Of a DNA stretch of 64,000 nucleotides, positions 35,832 to 46,812 are shown piece after piece. How positions within the stretch are numbered: the stretch's first letter is position 1; each line of letters opens with the position of its first letter. The translations under genes were made by a program, and so were the position numbers. The notes beneath the pieces are model-generated. The model worked only from the letters and a program-made list of their open reading frames with translations, was not told the DNA's origin and did no database searches. Origin of the DNA: Campylobacterales bacterium (GTDB lineage Bacteria; Campylobacterota; Campylobacteria; Campylobacterales; QNZT01); assembly GCA_024278835.1 (NCBI GenBank), contig JAJRSK010000036.1, forward strand, positions 1 through 64,000, read 5' to 3'.

Positions 35832-37064
35832 TTAAAACTGAAAGTTTAATGCGACAGTAATAGAATTTTGTTCATTCGTTGCAGTCACATTAGCACCACC
35901 ACCAAAATCAACCGTCTCTTCTACTTCTGGTGCATAGACATAGGCAATATCTAAACCTGTAGATTTTGATATCTGGTATGATAAACCACCTGTAAAGTGC
36001 GAATCAGAGTATGCGGGAAATCCCAAGGCATTGAAGTATGCAATATTACCTGGCTGAAATGGTGCTCCACCAACAGTTGCCGCAGTAAATGTTTTGTCAT
36101 GTAGTGGAGATTCTGCATAATTATATCCTAGTCTTAGTACTAAATTATCTGCCGCCTGATAAGACCCACCAAGAGCAAATACATCTTGATCATCCCATTG
36201 GAACGCATCATATCCATCAGCATCAGACCACATGATACGTCTGTAATCTAAAGTTATAGAATAACACTTACAATCAGAGGTATAACCAAAACCAATTCCT
36301 GCTTCTGCTGGTTGAGATAAATCTAAATCATCATATTGTCCATTTGTTGTAAAATCAAATACATCATCATATGTTGTATCTACTTGTGTTTGATAATAAG
36401 CACCTACAGTAAATGATGGCGTGACATGATAACCCAGACCTATTTGTCCACCAAAACCTATATCTTCACTTAACCCACCGGATCTTTGTCTTGCAGTTGT
36501 AGGATCTGGGTTTTGTCCTGGTGGCACACCATTTGGCGTAATCGCTGCCATATTTAATGCCCCATATGCAACTGTTAATCCAACACCTATTCTCAAGTCA
36601 TCTACTTTATAACTCAAACTTGGTACAAAACGCATATATTGCAATGAAGTTCTCATACCTGCAAGTCCAGGATCAGATTCATTTCTGTAATCAACACCCA
36701 TACCAGAAACACCAAACATACCTACACCATAAGAAAGTTCTTCATTGATATGATCAGAATGAGAAACTGTAGGGATGATAGAAAAATCTGCATCACTTGA
36801 TGTGGTAGAACCATTTCCACCAAATCGAGGGCCAACTGTAGCCGTTACATCAGGCATAAATGCTGTTGCACCAAAGCTCGCGTTAAATCCTTTTTGGTCT
36901 ACAATCCATGCAGGATTTCTAAAAACTGAATCAGTCCCTATACCCATACCTACACCAGCACCACCCATCGCACGTGACTGTGCACCGACACCTATCATAT
37001 TATCACCATTTGTTGCAAATGCTAACGTCGCTGTTAAAAGCGAAAGTGTTATAACTCTTTTCAT
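35832..37064 (-). CDS. OmpP1/FadL-family outer membrane protein
   Basis: GVGAQSRAMGGAGVG, beta-barrel pattern and terminal aromatic LNFQF. Confidence 0.9.
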   Translation of the reverse strand: MKRVITLSLLTATLAFATNGDNMIGVGAQSRAMGGAGVGMGIGTDSVFRNPAWIVDQKGFNASFGATAFMPDVTATVGPRFGGNGSTTSSDADFSIIPTVSHSDHINEELSYGVGMFGVSGMGVDYRNESDPGLAGMRTSLQYMRFVPSLSYKVDDLRIGVGLTVAYGALNMAAITPNGVPPGQNPDPTTARQRSGGLSEDIGFGGQIGLGYHVTPSFTVGAYYQTQVDTTYDDVFDFTTNGQYDDLDLSQPAEAGIGFGYTSDCKCYSITLDYRRIMWSDADGYDAFQWDDQDVFALGGSYQAADNLVLRLGYNYAESPLHDKTFTAATVGGAPFQPGNIAYFNALGFPAYSDSHFTGGLSYQISKSTGLDIAYVYAPEVEETVDFGGGANVTATNEQNSITVALNFQF

Positions 37065-37206: not shown

Positions 37207-38880
37207 TTAGATTGCTTTGGTATTAAACATCAACACTGGTACAAAAATCAGTGAAACAGCCACCGCTGCCACAGTTCCAGAAATCAACGCAACACCTAAA
37301 CCACCAAATATAGGATCAGATGCCAAAAGTGCTGAACCCAGTATAATAGCAACACCTGTTAACATGATAGGTTTAGCACGTGTAGCCGTTGCTACAGCAA
37401 TTGCATGACATTTTTCCATTCCCTCATCTTCCATCAAAGATTTGGTAAAATCAACCAAAAGTAGTGAATTACGTGAGCTAATCCCCATCAATGCAATAAA
37501 ACCAATTAATGAAGTAGCCGTTAAAAAGAAGGTTTCTGAAGTGAAAAGATTTGCTGCCCAATGTCCGATAAGTACCCCTATAATAGAGAGGAAACTACCA
37601 CCAAGGATGATACCCGAGATAGCAAAACTCTTATAATAGATAACCAATAGTAAAAATATCATAATCAATGCTGCTATAAAAGCACCACCCAAGTCCCTAA
37701 ATGTATCAAGCGTTACTTTCATCTCTCCATCCCAACGGAGAAGTACTTTTTCCCCCGTTTCTTTATTAACAAGATGTAAGTCAAACATATAGGTTGTCAT
37801 ACCTGGCTCTTTTGTCACATTGTACTCTTTTGAGAAGTATTCCATCATCACATCTCTAGCCTCAAGAAGTGGATAGACTTGAGAAACCATATCGGTTTCA
37901 CAAAAAACATTGGTGCTTCTTTTTAAATCTTTAGAAAAGATAGCAGGAAAACTCTTTTTTTGTGAGATATGTACCAATTCACTCACCGGTACCATCATTC
38001 CCATTTTATTCATTAGTTTCAAAGATGATATCTTCGCTTCTAATGCTTCTTTAGATAAATTTTCTACGCGTTTCGTCTCTTCACTTAAGGCTAAAAATAT
38101 AGGTATCTGATCTGGCGAGTGTTTTGAGTTTTTCACTGCGATATTCATCCCTTCAAACGCCAAATACAAAATTTTATTTAACTGTTCGATGGAGATACCA
38201 GAGCGTGATATCTTCTCTGTATCTGCCACAAGTTCATATCTATCATAAAACTCCTCTTGCATGATATCCACATCCACAACACCAGAAGTCTTTTTTAAGA
38301 TATCCGCCACTTCATGAGATACTTTTCTATTTGTGTACATATCTTCTGTCGTCACTTCCACAACGATAGAAGCAAGTGTCGGCGGACCAGCAGGTTGTTC
38401 AATCATCTTGATATTTGTGCCTTCTTTAATACTTGCACAACGTGACTGTATCACTGGTCGTAACCGATGCACCATCAAAAATGATGCCTCATCACGTTCA
38501 TGTTTATCTGTTAAATTGATGACTATTTCAGAAACATTCTCCCCTTGCTTTAGGGTAGATCCTTTCACCAAACCAGCATAGTCCAATGGTGCACCTTGTC
38601 CTAAAAAAGTTTCGACATCTGTGACTGCTTCTTCTCGTTTAAGTATATCCACCACACAATTAGTGATTTTTTTAGTCTCTTCTATAGAAGAACCTGTAGG
38701 TGCATCGACATAAATAGAAAATGTATTGGCACTTTTACCCGGTAACATCCGAGCCAAAACTAACTTTGTAGGAAGCATCATGATAGTAGCCCCAAGTGCT
38801 ACAAAAGTCAATACAATAACCATCATACGTTTAAAGCGGCTACCATTGACATTATATATAAAATTTTCTAGCCACTTCAT
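37207..38880 (-). CDS. RND efflux transporter, C-terminal half
   Basis: Begins at the expected TM7 segment; 557 aa. Confidence 0.88.
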   Translation of the reverse strand: MKWLENFIYNVNGSRFKRMMVIVLTFVALGATIMMLPTKLVLARMLPGKSANTFSIYVDAPTGSSIEETKKITNCVVDILKREEAVTDVETFLGQGAPLDYAGLVKGSTLKQGENVSEIVINLTDKHERDEASFLMVHRLRPVIQSRCASIKEGTNIKMIEQPAGPPTLASIVVEVTTEDMYTNRKVSHEVADILKKTSGVVDVDIMQEEFYDRYELVADTEKISRSGISIEQLNKILYLAFEGMNIAVKNSKHSPDQIPIFLALSEETKRVENLSKEALEAKISSLKLMNKMGMMVPVSELVHISQKKSFPAIFSKDLKRSTNVFCETDMVSQVYPLLEARDVMMEYFSKEYNVTKEPGMTTYMFDLHLVNKETGEKVLLRWDGEMKVTLDTFRDLGGAFIAALIMIFLLLVIYYKSFAISGIILGGSFLSIIGVLIGHWAANLFTSETFFLTATSLIGFIALMGISSRNSLLLVDFTKSLMEDEGMEKCHAIAVATATRAKPIMLTGVAIILGSALLASDPIFGGLGVALISGTVAAVAVSLIFVPVLMFNTKAI

Positions 38881-40523
38881 TATTTATCTCCCTCTAGTTT
38901 ATCTTTTTGAAAATGATGTTTATGATAGTGTCCTCTTGGTTTCTTTAACATCTTATTTGCCAAATATGGGGTAAATATATACGCCACAATCAAAGAAACG
39001 AACAGTGCAACTGGTACATTATAAGGAATAGGCTTCATAAACTCACCCATCATCCCCCCAACAAATGCCATAGGTACCATGGTCAAGATAATAGCCAAGG
39101 TCGCGATATTGGTTGGTGCACCAATCTCATCCGTCGCCGTAATCATAATCTCATGTTTTTCCCTATCAACCGCATCATGGGCATGCATATGTCTATGAAT
39201 ATTTTCGATAACAATGATAGCTGCATCCACCAGTAAGCCCAGTGAGAGCAAAAATGCAAAAAGTGTGATTCTATTGATAGTCTGTCCTGTTAAATACGCT
39301 ACAAAAAGTGTTACTGCCAAAATAGCAGGGACAGTAAAAGTTACGATAAGTGATTCTCTCCAACCCAAAGCGAGGACAAGGACTATCGCAATAATAACAA
39401 TCGTTATCACAAGGTGATTCATCAACTCATTTACCGCTTCATCCGCTCGCACACCATAGTTTCTCGTTAACTTATAGCCAATATGTTCTTTAGCAAATTC
39501 AGGTTCATACTCTTTTAATTTCTCTAATACTTTTTCTGCTACGACAACAGCATTGGTACCCTTGAGTTTTGAAACAGAGAGAGTGATTTGATTTGTTAAC
39601 GCTGTAAAGTTTCCATTTTTATCTCTTTGTGTAATTTGCGCACCTTTGTAATTTTGTACATCGTAGCCATCTTCCACTTCTGCGACATCTCGTAAATAGA
39701 TAGGTGCGCCCATATATGATGCGACGATAACGTTACGTACGTCTTCCACACTATTGATAGCATTTTGTACACCAAACATCACAATCTTACCATCGGCTGT
39801 TCTATTTTTTACTTCTGGTACATTGACAGCCAAAGCTTGTATGGATTGCATCAACTGCCCCAAAGAGAGATGGTACCCAGAGAGTTTATAAAGATCGACT
39901 TTGACATTGAACTGCTCTTTATGCTCACCTTTTAGGGTCGTTTTAGAAACATTTTCTATTGTATTTATCTCTTGTTGAATATCCCTTACTTTTCTAAAAA
40001 GGTCTGTTTGAGAAAGCTTATTATCATCTTTAGAATAAAACGCTAGTGAGATGATAGGGACATCAATATCGATATCAAAAGGCTTCACTATCGGTTGCAT
40101 TGCACCCTTTGGCATAAGATTCATATTTTGCATCACTTTATCATAAAGTTTGAGGTTTGAGTCTTCTCTATTTTCCCCAATTTTATACATTACATTGATA
40201 ATGCCAATATTGTTTGCTGCTACACCATAGATATGTTCTAAACCAGCAATCTCTCTTAGTTTTCTTTGTAATGGTTTCACTACTACATTCTCAATCTCAC
40301 TTGGTGTTGCTCCAGGTATAACTACCATAATAGTACCCCCAGAAATTGCAATCTGAGGATCTTCTTCTCGTGGCATAATCACAAGAGAAAGATACCCAAC
40401 AGCCAGTAAAAAAATAGCAAGGACAGGTGTCAGAGGATTATATATAAATGACTTTGCTAGTCTTCCAGCATAGTCTGTTACAGATATACCACCAATATCT
40501 TTATCACTTTCAATTTCGCTCAT
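38880..40523 (-). CDS. RND efflux transporter, N-terminal half
   Basis: Porter domain start and TM1-6; 547 aa; ends after TM6 in a His/Lys-rich tail. Confidence 0.88.
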   Translation of the reverse strand: MSEIESDKDIGGISVTDYAGRLAKSFIYNPLTPVLAIFLLAVGYLSLVIMPREEDPQIAISGGTIMVVIPGATPSEIENVVVKPLQRKLREIAGLEHIYGVAANNIGIINVMYKIGENREDSNLKLYDKVMQNMNLMPKGAMQPIVKPFDIDIDVPIISLAFYSKDDNKLSQTDLFRKVRDIQQEINTIENVSKTTLKGEHKEQFNVKVDLYKLSGYHLSLGQLMQSIQALAVNVPEVKNRTADGKIVMFGVQNAINSVEDVRNVIVASYMGAPIYLRDVAEVEDGYDVQNYKGAQITQRDKNGNFTALTNQITLSVSKLKGTNAVVVAEKVLEKLKEYEPEFAKEHIGYKLTRNYGVRADEAVNELMNHLVITIVIIAIVLVLALGWRESLIVTFTVPAILAVTLFVAYLTGQTINRITLFAFLLSLGLLVDAAIIVIENIHRHMHAHDAVDREKHEIMITATDEIGAPTNIATLAIILTMVPMAFVGGMMGEFMKPIPYNVPVALFVSLIVAYIFTPYLANKMLKKPRGHYHKHHFQKDKLEGDK

Positions 40524-40537
40524 GTTAGCTTCCTTTC

Positions 40538-41332
40538 TTAATCATCAAATGAAATTTTGCTATATAACCCAGGATAGACTAACTTACCATCTCTATCAAA
40601 ATCTATTTTAATCTTAAACGTATGTGTCATAGGATTTGAACTGGGGATAATGGAAGAGACATGCCCGATTGATTTTAATCCAGCAGAAGGTATCTCCACA
40701 CTTACTTCTTGACCTATTTTCATATATTGTAAATTACTCTCAGCTACTTCTGTTAAAATCTTTAATCTACTTAAATCTGTCAAAACCAGCGCTGGCATAC
40801 CAGGAATCGCCATCTCACCTACATTGATATTTTTCTGAACAATTACACCATCATTTGGTGCTTTTACTTTTAAATAATTATATTGGTTCATCACCTGCGT
40901 TAAAGAAGCTTCCGCTTGCTGCACTTGTTTTTTAGCCACTTTTATCATATCAACTAAATTTTTTTCAGCCAATTCTAAACTCTCTAATTGATATTTTGAG
41001 ACCATATCTTTTGCAAAGAGACGCTTATTACGGGCTAAGTTTAGTAAAAGATTTGTATGTTGATTACGGTACATTTGAAGAGATAATCTTGCTTGTTGTA
41101 TACCTAATTCTACTTGAATCTTCGAACTATCAATCTCTTTAGAATCAATCTCATATAAAAGTTGTCCCTTAGTCACACGGTCACCTTCCGAAACAGAAAC
41201 ACTTTTTATAAATCCCATATAACGACTCGTTAACATCTTTTTATTGTCTGAAACTACTGTTCCCGTCAATTCTATCTTTATTGCCACGGCATAACTACTT
41301 AGTAGCAGTATCATTAAAACAATTTTTTTCAT
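40538..41332 (-). CDS. RND periplasmic adaptor (HlyD/MFP family)
   Basis: Lipoyl and hairpin domains (VKAPNDGVIVQKNINVGEM). Confidence 0.9.
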   Translation of the reverse strand: MKKIVLMILLLSSYAVAIKIELTGTVVSDNKKMLTSRYMGFIKSVSVSEGDRVTKGQLLYEIDSKEIDSSKIQVELGIQQARLSLQMYRNQHTNLLLNLARNKRLFAKDMVSKYQLESLELAEKNLVDMIKVAKKQVQQAEASLTQVMNQYNYLKVKAPNDGVIVQKNINVGEMAIPGMPALVLTDLSRLKILTEVAESNLQYMKIGQEVSVEIPSAGLKSIGHVSSIIPSSNPMTHTFKIKIDFDRDGKLVYPGLYSKISFDD

Positions 41333-42777
41333 TTATTTTCTCCATATGTTAATCTAGCTAACTCTAATATTTTTTCATTTCTTTGCGTCTGAACTTGTTG
41401 CAGGCTTAATAACTTCTCTATTTGAAGTGCCTCTTTTATGAGAACATCATTGATAGAAGTTAAACCTTCTTCATATCGTGCTAGATATGAGTTATATATC
41501 TCATTTGTCAAATCAACCTCTTTTTGTAAACTCTCCACCTGTGCATTCAAATTTTTAATCTCTGTTTTAATCTTCTTAAATTTAAGTGCTATCCCCTTTT
41601 TAGCAAGTTCAACTTGCTTGGCAACTTTTAGTTTTTTTAACTTCTCTTGTTGTAACATTGCTGCGTCAGAACCACCGGCAAAAAGATTATAAGAGAGTTG
41701 TATTCCCACCGTATATCTATCATGTTTTTTAAAGTCATTTAAAAATTTATCATCACTAGAGCCATACTCTGCAAAGGCACCCACACTAGGGTGAAAAGCT
41801 GATCCTGCGACATCAACCATCTTTGACTGTATTGCCAAGCCAGTTTTTGCTCTTTGTATATCCAAGTTTTTATCAAGTACCTCTTCCTCAGTTACCGTAA
41901 ACTCTGGTGCATCTAAGGCAACTGTTTGAATAGACTTTACTTCTGAATTAACTAAAAAACTTAAAAATTGATAAGAGAGTTCTTTGTTAGCATCTGTCTG
42001 AATCAACATCCTTTTTACATTTGCCAATTTAGACTCAACTTCTAAGAGATCCGTTTTCTTAGCATATCCCTCTTTTCGCATCTCTACAGTTGTATTTCGT
42101 AACTCTTCCATACTCCCTAATACGTGTTTTAAATCTTTTGCAAAATTTAAAAGTAAAGAGATATCATAAAAAGCTTTTTTTACTTCAAAAAGCTTTTCTG
42201 CTACCACTTTGCTTTTATCCAAAGCACCCATTTTCGACATCTGCTTTGCGATATCTCTATAACTTTTTAACTTCCAACCGGTATAGAGAGGAATCATAAA
42301 AGAGAGTTTTGTATCAAAATGATTTCTCGTTTTTGGAAAGTTTAACTGGTCTGGCTCTATGCCTAAAAGTTGTGCCTGTGCTTGTGGATTTGCCATATTT
42401 TCAGCAAAAGCATTAAAGTCAGGTTCACCAGAAGCATTGACCATTGCCCCACCAAAAGCACCTAAAAACTCATCAAAACCAAAGTCCCCAAAATTTGCTT
42501 CTCTACTTTGAAGCTTAAAACCAAACACATTACCTGCATCATTAGATCTTAGCCCCATTAAAGTCGCATCTAATTTACCAAAACTATATCCATTAGCTAC
42601 TCTAATACCTAAGTCACTGACTTGTTTATCAAACTTTGCGATATCTATCTCTAGATTGTGTTCTTTAGTCATAGCAATAGCATCTGGAAGAGAGAGGTTT
42701 TCATATATTTTTAACTCTTCCGCTTTTAAAAAAGAACCTAAACATAAAGAGAGTATAAAAATCTTTTTTTTCATCAA
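41329..42777 (-). CDS. TolC-family outer membrane efflux protein
   Basis: 482 aa, signal peptide, TolC coiled-coil repeats. Confidence 0.88.
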   Translation of the reverse strand: MMKKKIFILSLCLGSFLKAEELKIYENLSLPDAIAMTKEHNLEIDIAKFDKQVSDLGIRVANGYSFGKLDATLMGLRSNDAGNVFGFKLQSREANFGDFGFDEFLGAFGGAMVNASGEPDFNAFAENMANPQAQAQLLGIEPDQLNFPKTRNHFDTKLSFMIPLYTGWKLKSYRDIAKQMSKMGALDKSKVVAEKLFEVKKAFYDISLLLNFAKDLKHVLGSMEELRNTTVEMRKEGYAKKTDLLEVESKLANVKRMLIQTDANKELSYQFLSFLVNSEVKSIQTVALDAPEFTVTEEEVLDKNLDIQRAKTGLAIQSKMVDVAGSAFHPSVGAFAEYGSSDDKFLNDFKKHDRYTVGIQLSYNLFAGGSDAAMLQQEKLKKLKVAKQVELAKKGIALKFKKIKTEIKNLNAQVESLQKEVDLTNEIYNSYLARYEEGLTSINDVLIKEALQIEKLLSLQQVQTQRNEKILELARLTYGENK

Positions 42778-42900
42778 TTTCCCTATTTTATCAATTGTTA
42801 AATAGTTAATATTTTACAGAATGCTTGCTTAGAAGCGTATTGAGTTTTAGAAGAATAAAATAGCCAGATATTATAAAACGAGAGTATTAAAAGAAGGAGC

Positions 42901-42927
42901 ATTTCCCAACACAATTGGCTGGGAAAT
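42901..42927. terminator. Hairpin downstream of the 11-mer repeat gene
   Basis: ATTTCCCA...TGGGAAAT. Confidence 0.5.
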
Positions 42928-42948
42928 ACTTATAGTAAATCTGTCTAC

Positions 42949-43845
42949 TTACTTATCCTTAGCATCATCACTTACTTTTTTAACTGAATCTCTTGAGTCA
43001 TTTGAAATAGTTTTTGTGCTATCTCTAGCATCATCACTAACACTAGTTACACTTTCTCTAGTATTGTTTGTTGCTGTGTTTGTTGTATCTCTTGCATCAT
43101 TTGAAAGAGTTTTTGTGCTATCTCTTGAGTCGTTAGACACAGTTTGTACTGAATCTCTACTGTCATTTGATACTGTTTTCACAGAAGATGTTGCATCATT
43201 TGAAATAGTTTTTGTACTATCTCTTGAGTCATTAGACACAGTTTGTACTGAATCTCTACTGTCATTTGAAATAGTTTTTGTACTATCTCTAGTGTCATTA
43301 GATACAGTCTTCACTGAGTCTCTTGAATCATTTGAAATAGTTTTTGTGCTATCTCTTGTGTCATTTGATACTGTTTTTACCGAATCTCTTGAATCATTTG
43401 ATACTGTTACTGTACTATCTTTCAAGTCACGACTGACATTTGAAACAGAATCTCTTTGATCTGCACTCACACTTTTTACACTATCACTAGTATCATGTGA
43501 AACTGTTACCGCTGAGTCTTTCAAATCTTTTGTAGCAGCCATAGAAGATGCTTTTAAATCCGCAGACGCATTTGTCGCAGTATCTTTAGTATCCTCAGCT
43601 ACTTCAATTGTAGAATCTCTAACATCTCTACTGACACTTGTCATGGTATCTTTCTGATCAGCTGACACATTTGTTACTGATCTCTCCGCTGATCTACCAG
43701 TCTCAATAACACTTTCTTTCATATCTTTACTTACGCCTGTAACCGCATCTTTCATATCTGTAAACATATCACCAAAACTAAAATCTGCTGACACCGGTGA
43801 CGTTAAAAGTACCGCTAAACTCGTTGCTATTACTATCTTCTTCAT
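42949..43845 (-). CDS. Exported protein built of 24 tandem 11-residue repeats (LEA/apolipoprotein-like amphipathic repeat)
   Basis: Signal peptide MKKIVIATSLAVLLTSPVSA then 24 x 11 aa such as DSRDSVKTVSN/DTRDSTKTISN; 29+264+5 = 298 aa. Confidence 0.85.
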   Translation of the reverse strand: MKKIVIATSLAVLLTSPVSADFSFGDMFTDMKDAVTGVSKDMKESVIETGRSAERSVTNVSADQKDTMTSVSRDVRDSTIEVAEDTKDTATNASADLKASSMAATKDLKDSAVTVSHDTSDSVKSVSADQRDSVSNVSRDLKDSTVTVSNDSRDSVKTVSNDTRDSTKTISNDSRDSVKTVSNDTRDSTKTISNDSRDSVQTVSNDSRDSTKTISNDATSSVKTVSNDSRDSVQTVSNDSRDSTKTLSNDARDTTNTATNNTRESVTSVSDDARDSTKTISNDSRDSVKKVSDDAKDK

Positions 43846-44112: not shown

Positions 44113-44898
44113 ATGTACAAGCTATTAACCATACTACTATTTGTAGCATCTCTCTTGCCCGCCTCTACTCTCACCATACCTGGGACCGTTGTTTCTGACA
44201 GTCAAAGGATGATTGGCAGTCGCTATATGGGTTACGTCAAAGAGATAAATTTCAATATTGGTGATAAAGTCAAACAAGATGATATCCTATTTGAAATCCA
44301 ATCTGGAGAATTTGACTTGATGAAGTCACAAGCTGAGTTAGGATTAGAACAAGCACAAATCTTTGTAGAGATGTACCAAACACACTTAGCCAATGTACAA
44401 CGAGAGAAAAGAAGCCTCAAAAGAACAAAAAAGGCTTCCATGATAGATGTAGAAACACTCGATATCGCTGCTGAAAACACCAAGGCCATGTTAAAGGCAG
44501 CACAACAAGTGGTCAAACAAGCAACCATCAAGATAAAACAATTCACGGGACTTTATAATTATCTGGAAGTAAAAGCACCCAATGATGGAGTAATCGTCCA
44601 AAAAAGAATCAAAGTGGGTGATATGATTATGCCTGGTATGCTTGCGATGATTTTAGTAGATTTAAATGATTTAAGAATTGAAGCAAACATAGCAGAGTCT
44701 AATCTTAAATATATCCGAAAGAACACTCAATTAAAAGTGACCATTCCTTCTATAGACTTTAAAACAACAGGCGTAGTAGAAGCCATTGTACCTAGTGCCA
44801 ATCCTATGACACACACCATGACAATAAGAGTGAAGTTTAACAAAAGAGATATAGAGATATTTCCAGGAATGTACGCAAAATTACACGTTGAGATGTAA
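44113..44898 (+). CDS. Second HlyD/MFP-family adaptor, paralogous to 40538..41332
   Basis: Shares GTVVSD, SRYMG, YLxVKAPNDGVIVQK, NPMTHT with the other adaptor. Confidence 0.88.
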   Translation: MYKLLTILLFVASLLPASTLTIPGTVVSDSQRMIGSRYMGYVKEINFNIGDKVKQDDILFEIQSGEFDLMKSQAELGLEQAQIFVEMYQTHLANVQREKRSLKRTKKASMIDVETLDIAAENTKAMLKAAQQVVKQATIKIKQFTGLYNYLEVKAPNDGVIVQKRIKVGDMIMPGMLAMILVDLNDLRIEANIAESNLKYIRKNTQLKVTIPSIDFKTTGVVEAIVPSANPMTHTMTIRVKFNKRDIEIFPGMYAKLHVEM

Positions 44899-46557: not shown

Positions 46558-46812
46558 TTAATTTAACTCTAACTGTATCTCAGATACAGCATAAAAATAA
46601 CTTTTTTGATTTAAATCTTTTTTGAACTGCCCTAACCAAGTATTTTTTGTATGTTCTTGGTTGAACTTGTATGTAGTATCGTCCATATCAGATGTCTCTA
46701 CATCAGATACGGACATTTTTGGAGTGCTGATATAATGATAAGATAAAAATATCATCACAAAAACAGTCACCCCTAATAAGAAAAAAATAGAATATTTATA
46801 TCTACTTTTCAT
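46558..46812 (-). CDS. Small single-pass membrane protein of unknown function between rpsA and serA
   Basis: 84 aa, N-terminal TM, same strand and tight spacing. Confidence 0.6.
   Translation of the reverse strand: MKSRYKYSIFFLLGVTVFVMIFLSYHYISTPKMSVSDVETSDMDDTTYKFNQEHTKNTWLGQFKKDLNQKSYFYAVSEIQLELN

Follow-up and report, generated by a model that had tools for sequence, protein, structure and literature searches.

Amphipathic repeat helices with 11/3 periodicity have been studied best in the coats of eukaryotic lipid particles and in the synucleins. In class A apolipoprotein helices, both flanks are basic and the apex is acidic. For the 11-mer helix of perilipin-4 (Plin4), one-sided basic residues, scarce aromatics, and a weak V/T/A face give a stable coat (PMC8064757; PMC5889406). 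The Plin4 coat was destabilised when the charges were symmetric, and a few Thr-to-Ser changes abolished binding (PMC8064757).

We analyzed a repeat protein, termed REP, whose gene lies in a 64,000-nucleotide stretch of Campylobacterales DNA (the window). The Plin4 11-mer helix appears to be the nearest working analogue of REP, and the likeness is read as convergence, not as homology or family membership. Both proteins have long gap-free arrays of 11-mers, 3-11 periodicity, almost no aromatics, and a weak V/T apolar face, with basic residues placed one-sidedly at the polar/apolar interface. Both also show internal duplication above the level of 11 residues, as a 33-aa unit in Plin4 and a 99-bp DNA unit in REP. 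Compared with the Plin4 values of PMC5889406, the hydrophobic moment of REP was 0.33 against 0.257, the hydrophobic fraction 0.227 against 0.35, the aromatic fraction 0 against 0.002, and the charged fraction 0.33 against 0.15, where the HeliQuest averaging may differ slightly from our computation. Unlike human Plin4, REP is bacterial, predicted to be exported, net acidic, and Ser-rich, and it uses Arg besides Lys.

Other 11-residue systems resemble REP in part. Apolipoproteins and alpha-synuclein share with it the predicted 11/3 amphipathic helix and a Pfam resemblance, but their charges are symmetric about the apolar axis, whereas those of REP lie on two separate edges. Hendecad coiled coils, such as the tetrabrachion stalk and the NadA undecads, have the same 11-residue period and possible parallel salt bridges; however, the REP core is more polar, and REP has neither a membrane or beta-barrel anchor nor a solved relative. 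Group 3 LEA proteins (LEA_4) are similarly built from hydrophilic amphipathic 11-mers, whereas REP shows an Asp/Ser/Val pattern with two charge edges and no significant LEA_4 match. Our literature search found no bacterial 11-residue apolipoprotein-like periplasmic repeats. The REP family may offer an independently evolved test of the Plin4 charge-edge rule on coat stability.

The repeat gene and its product

The REP gene was read as an ORF of 298 aa with an ATG start, preceded by a strong Shine-Dalgarno sequence, AAAGGAG. Its features were as follows.

42949..43845, minus strand: REP gene (ORF reading and homologues)
43786..43845, minus strand: putative signal peptide MKKIVIATSLAVLLTSPVSA, residues 1-20, without a lipobox Cys (n/h/c-region and A-X-A rule)
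43744..43785, minus strand: mature N-terminus DFSFGDMFTDMKDA (family column conservation)
42967..43758, minus strand: 24 gap-free 11-mers, residues 30-293 (repeat parsing)
43399..43758, minus strand: the more degenerate part of the array, repeats 1-11, roughly residues 30-149 (repeat comparison and column conservation)
42967..43398, minus strand: repeats 12-24, lineage-specific, with local duplications (Tandem Repeats Finder and repeat divergence)
42898..42930, minus strand: intrinsic-terminator-like hairpin 3' of REP, 13-pair stem (hairpin reading)

The signal peptide, read by rule, suggests that REP is exported by the Sec route, which supports the exported protein proposed in an earlier note on this DNA. 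The count given there of exactly 24 gap-free 11-mers followed by DAKDK was reproduced; these last five residues form the C-terminus directly after repeat 24. The mature N-terminus was the most conserved stretch of the family, with a mean column conservation of 0.93, which fell to 0.42 across the last third. The aromatics of REP are confined to this N-terminal stretch. Cys is absent from the protein, Pro is absent from its repeats, Gly occurs there twice, and the net charge over the repeats is -11. Repeats 1-11 include degenerate copies such as SAERSVTNVSA and DLKASSMAATK; the single consensus previously given for the array holds for roughly repeats 12-24, but not for these.

The terminator-like hairpin follows the REP stop codon, indicating that REP adjoins the TolC/HlyD/RND operon and does not lie inside it. 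REP is probably transcribed alone, not with the TolC operon. The other strand has a long ORF as well, at 43016-43459(+), which was judged to be a by-product of the repeat.

Helical periodicity and turnover of the array

The hydrophobic moment of REP, calculated with the Fauchere-Pliska scale on an 11/3 helix, was 0.330, compared with a mean of 0.041 and a maximum of 0.113 in 1000 shuffles. An angular scan of the moment peaked at 98-98.5 degrees, which corresponds to 11/3 periodicity, and this peak was present in all 34 family members; the apolipoprotein-like amphipathic periodicity of 11 residues suggested earlier was thereby borne out. Across 824 repeats in 34 proteins, the phase of the array was unbroken save for one internal 7-residue insertion (SMKDGA), which lies near the N-terminus, roughly keeps the phase, and is absent in the window's genus. 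Phase breaks are also seen at both ends of the family arrays. A comparison of repeat number, set as a check in the earlier note, gave 17-31 repeats per protein among the Campylobacterota homologues, in 11-residue steps.

Over the same 824 repeats, the positions were occupied by Asp/Asn (position 1), T/A/L/S/M/V (2), K/R (3), D (4), S (5), V/T (6), K (7), T (8), V/I (9), S (10; 90% S/T), and N/D/K (11). On an 11/3 wheel, positions 9, 2, and 6 form an apolar centre at ~190 degrees, D1 and D4 lie on one edge, and R/K3 and K7 lie on the opposite edge. The repeats are predicted to form an 11/3 amphipathic helix with a small aliphatic/Thr face at positions 2/6/9, an Asp edge, and a Lys/Arg edge. Aliphatics at positions 2 and 6 compensated each other (r -0.47), and the variance of aliphatics per repeat was 0.444 against a mean of 0.655, lower than in all 2000 column shuffles; the repeats behind these statistics share ancestry and hence are not independent. 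The net charge resolved almost entirely into a dipole at nearly right angles to the apolar axis, and its sign was the same for 34 of 34 members (0 of 500 shuffles each). The AlphaFold2 model of REP was helix throughout, without strand, at low confidence (mean pLDDT 47.9), with values of 70-83 near the C-terminus only.

Resemblance to the Pfam Apolipoprotein A1/A4/E family (PF01442) was observed in all 34 members, with scores of 24.6 bits for REP and 34.1 bits for the homologue L067 against a gathering score of 90 bits, REP being well under the cut-off. Synuclein (PF01387, gathering score 23.3 bits) was matched by L034 at 25.6 bits and by a position-permuted control at 26.7 bits; no Synuclein match for REP was among the Pfam matches listed. 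LEA_4 (PF02987) was reached by 4 of 34 members, with a best E of 0.014, and REP was not among the listed matches; the previous suggestion of a group 3 LEA or desiccation protectant was not upheld by this result. The control series set four sequences with permuted positions and two full shuffles beside two natural members. The Apolipoprotein/Synuclein resemblance of the natural sequences was lost each time on full shuffling, and in three of the four permutations. The one permuted control that kept a 3-residue V-V spacing still matched both families, indicating that the Pfam resemblance reports 11/3 amphipathicity, not ancestry. A PAT domain and C-terminal four-helix bundle appeared neither among the REP Pfam matches (E up to 10) nor among the 25 families most often matched by the 34 members. 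Membership of REP in the Apolipoprotein, Perilipin, or LEA families was rejected on these tests, and the Synuclein matches were unspecific. Solved structures searched by sequence and profile gave no match for REP, solved coiled coils included. The beta-barrel anchor of a trimeric autotransporter was not found, as REP ends right after its repeats, and neither was an Lpp-type lipobox, as Cys is lacking; an LPAM_1 match was insignificant.

At the DNA level, Tandem Repeats Finder gave periods of 33, 66, 99, and 132 bp, the best being 99 bp (43092-43278, 93% match), and repeats three apart differed less than nearest neighbours. An alternation of two repeat types in a 66-bp unit had been described before; the residues do alternate in repeats 12-17, but the 99-bp period is the stronger at the DNA level. 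Within repeats 12-24, the codons differed in 42% of identical-residue pairs, indicating that the pattern of the protein persists longer than the copies at the DNA level. The nearest relative of REP is L031, with an identity of about 74-79%. When the two were compared position by position, most of the first repeats differed at 9-15% of bases, and repeats 1-11 compared inside one protein differed at 52%. For repeats 12-24, the within-protein divergence was 33%, near the orthologue divergence of 38%. This pattern indicates that the front of REP evolves as unique sequence, whereas the back is renewed by duplication, in register. An origin of the array by DNA slippage or chance was ruled out by the codon heterogeneity and the shuffles. 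As judged from its sequence, REP is under protein-level selection.

Distribution and the recurrent envelope module

REP homologues were found in 15 of the 22 genomes of the same family and, at E<=1e-10, in 19 of 397 Campylobacterota genomes (8 of 69 genera). Public named genomes held 22 REP loci, all in Campylobacterota or unassigned MAGs, with records that include Sulfurovum, Sulfurospirillum, and Helicobacteraceae. The hosts are marine, largely sulfur-oxidising bacteria, and the homologues are confined to certain lineages of Campylobacterota, where they are widespread. The family has no name in Pfam and NCBIfam as searched. Phage records yielded no REP homologues, and the plasmid search gave one weak low-complexity match only. 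A phage origin was rejected; weak PHROG tape-measure matches of L067 were judged to be helical low complexity. Tandem copies, two to four, were present at L034, L038, L044, L046, and L047. Very short relatives, 82-105 aa long, whose N-terminus is similar and whose repeats are few, were also observed downstream of full-length copies (L034:8504-8821 and L051:6926-7174).

In the Campylobacterota sample, SoxB was present in 11 of 19 REP genomes compared with 81 of 378 other genomes. This co-occurrence is suggestive of a sulfur link, which is confounded by phylogeny and is not universal. In a Sulfurovum transcriptome, TolC/HlyD genes were up on sulfur (PMC10045233); the locus tags were not matched to the REP locus.

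In the window, REP is flanked by the following genes.

44113..44898, plus strand: ADP1, a CusB/HlyD-type periplasmic adaptor, divergent from REP and a conserved neighbour (homology and synteny)
41329..42777, minus strand: TolC-family outer membrane efflux protein (homology)
40538..41332, minus strand: ADP2, a second RND adaptor (homology)
38880..40523, minus strand: split RND permease, N-terminal half (homology)
37207..38880, minus strand: split RND permease, C-terminal half (homology)
35832..37064, minus strand: outer membrane protein of the FadL/TodX family that recurs in the module (homology and synteny)

The spot beside a TolC/HlyD/RND operon had been called unusual; the adjacency is correct, but the claim was an understatement, as the neighbourhood of REP is a recurrent, conserved divergent module. 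Synteny was counted by hand for the window and 37 further loci, some of which are not independent of each other. A cytochrome-like gene was adjacent to REP and divergent from it in 32 of the 36 loci that could be assessed, ADP1 was in the module at 34 of 36, and 28 of 33 had TAIL, a domain of ~250 aa often fused to DUF302, downstream of REP on its strand. A split two-gene RND permease, TolC, a second adaptor, and FadL were frequent companions. The cytochrome-like protein is exported, has 135-145 aa and one C-terminal CXXCH, and by eye looks cytochrome-c'-like; it had no Pfam, NCBIfam, or specific PDB match. The TAIL model reached a pLDDT of 88.2, and its highest-probability solved Foldseek match was the DUF302 protein 1q9u (0.99; E 0.023, TM 0.29/0.54); on this model, TAIL is probably a divergent DUF302 relative. 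TAIL was present in all 19 REP genomes compared with 36 of 378 others, and in 55 of 397 in all in the phylum sample. Together, REP and the DUF302-like, cytochrome-like, and RND parts define a recurrent envelope module.

The genome to which the window belongs carries its cytochrome-like and DUF302/TAIL genes away from the REP locus. On contig C45 of this genome, the gene of a DUF302 relative (L095:9482-10399) forms a cluster with those of SoxB and of CXXCH proteins, a hint that proteins of the DUF302 type may take part in sulfur oxidation.

Several minor features of these neighbourhoods were also observed. The RND permease at 37207-40523(-) is encoded by two half-genes side by side, of 547 and 557 aa, and relatives from several families show this split too. 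Its N half reads VDAAIIVIEN with one Asp; AcrB-type pumps have two Asp at the matching site. TAIL occurs as an exported, previously unmodelled domain at L042:9658-10485, L040:7111-8202, and L092:9394-10215, and a FadL-DUF302-TAIL operon is present at L096, L097, and L098. A second CXXCH-protein paralogue lies convergent beside FadL in L033, L036, L039, and L042. At L075:8262-10610, the cytochrome-like gene and its neighbours look inverted and duplicated on either side of a repeat gene, either as a palindrome or as an assembly artefact. Lastly, an 84-aa protein with an N-terminal hydrophobic segment, at 46558-46812(-) between serA and rpsA, had no family match and is kept in the sister genome L031.

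Possible roles of the predicted long helix

The reading that we tentatively favor, possible though short of probable, is that long REP helices lie parallel, side by side, and coat an apolar surface of the envelope. REP, soluble in principle, would form one very long 11/3 alpha-helix, ~40 nm if fully helical, which the conserved DFSFGDMF N-terminus may nucleate or anchor. The narrow apolar face (positions 2, 6, and 9: V/I/T/L/M/A) would rest on a membrane leaflet, a hydrophobic particle, or cargo. Because the D1, D4 edge is acidic and the R/K3, K7 edge is basic, adjacent helices could pack in parallel, acidic edge to basic edge, making a coat or raft. In the periplasm, REP would act with adjacently encoded RND-type adaptor, cytochrome-like, and DUF302-like proteins, and might be linked to the pump substrate.

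The periodicity, phase, compensation, dipole, Plin4 likeness, Apolipoprotein resemblance, helix-only AlphaFold2 model, and synteny argue for this coat. Against it stand the low confidence of the AlphaFold2 model, the net acidic repeats, which are unfavourable for anionic membranes, and the fit of a hendecad coiled coil to the same pattern. A real weakness is the apolar face, which is poorer than in all comparators of PMC5889406 Table 1; given this face and the Thr-to-Ser sensitivity of Plin4, the lipid affinity of REP may be too low. A fuller version, doubtful as a whole, would make REP the exported bacterial counterpart of the Plin4 coat, a giant, weakly apolar, two-edged helix forming a sheet by self-assembly on a hydrophobic surface of the envelope. 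In marine Campylobacterota, it would serve a FadL/DUF302/cytochrome/split-RND/TolC system whose substrate is hydrophobic and might be zero-valent sulfur or a lipid.

A soluble hendecad (11/3) coiled coil is a serious contender, nearly as likely as the surface coat. In solution, REP would then associate with itself, with positions 2/6/9/10 as the contacts, and build a parallel bundle that is long and nearly straight. This rod, periplasmic or secreted, would serve neighbouring pump parts as a scaffold or spacer. The 11-residue period and the 4-3-4 core spacing of a hendecad are present, the opposite acidic and basic flanks suit parallel interhelix salt bridges, and exported bacterial undecad coiled coils are known, such as NadA3 (PMC6191539). 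However, the core is very polar, a/d/e/h being largely Ser/Thr and these residues being common at positions 2, 6, and 10, and many repeats have just one or two aliphatics. No solved coiled coil was matched by sequence, and monomer prediction is blind to bundles. The range of 17-31 repeats also disfavours a fixed-length ruler spanning the periplasm. The coat and the coiled coil both have lateral parallel association and differ in the need for a surface.

It is improbable that REP acts in the periplasm as a disordered hydration protein, LEA-like or osmoprotective, a role among those that the earlier note had proposed. Its very hydrophilic, low-complexity 11-mers fit such a role, but LEA_4 was reached by few members, the face and charge edges are conserved more strictly than a generic protectant needs, and the genes that accompany REP are those of a single transport module instead of stress genes. 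Quite improbable, too, is an exchangeable apolipoprotein-like shuttle moving a hydrophobic substrate between RND/TolC/FadL components; REP resembles Pfam Apolipoprotein and ApoLp-III, and FadL, TolC, RND, and adaptors are encoded close by, but its charge vector is almost wholly transverse, unlike class A helices, and a permuted control shows the Pfam resemblance as well. An extended beta repeat, for example a beta-solenoid adhesin rich in Ser/Thr/Asp, would suit the beta-branched, polar composition, but is highly improbable given the 4-3-4 apolar spacing, the 98-degree moment, two Gly, and a model without strand. Least credible is a neutral repeat expansion with no function at the protein level, for which the local 99-bp duplication speaks, and against which stand the synonymous codon differences in repeats 12-24, the 11-residue phase kept across genera, and the conserved module.

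A C-terminal motif like S-x-D/E-Y-x-x-Y-x-x-L/W-K-x-K is common to many of the repeat proteins (C-termini of L070, L071, L072, L073, L040, L042, and L045), whereas the window protein is without it. It was similarly observed in two small exported neighbours (L042:7198-7497 and L045:7084-7422), and may possibly be a docking or sorting signal.
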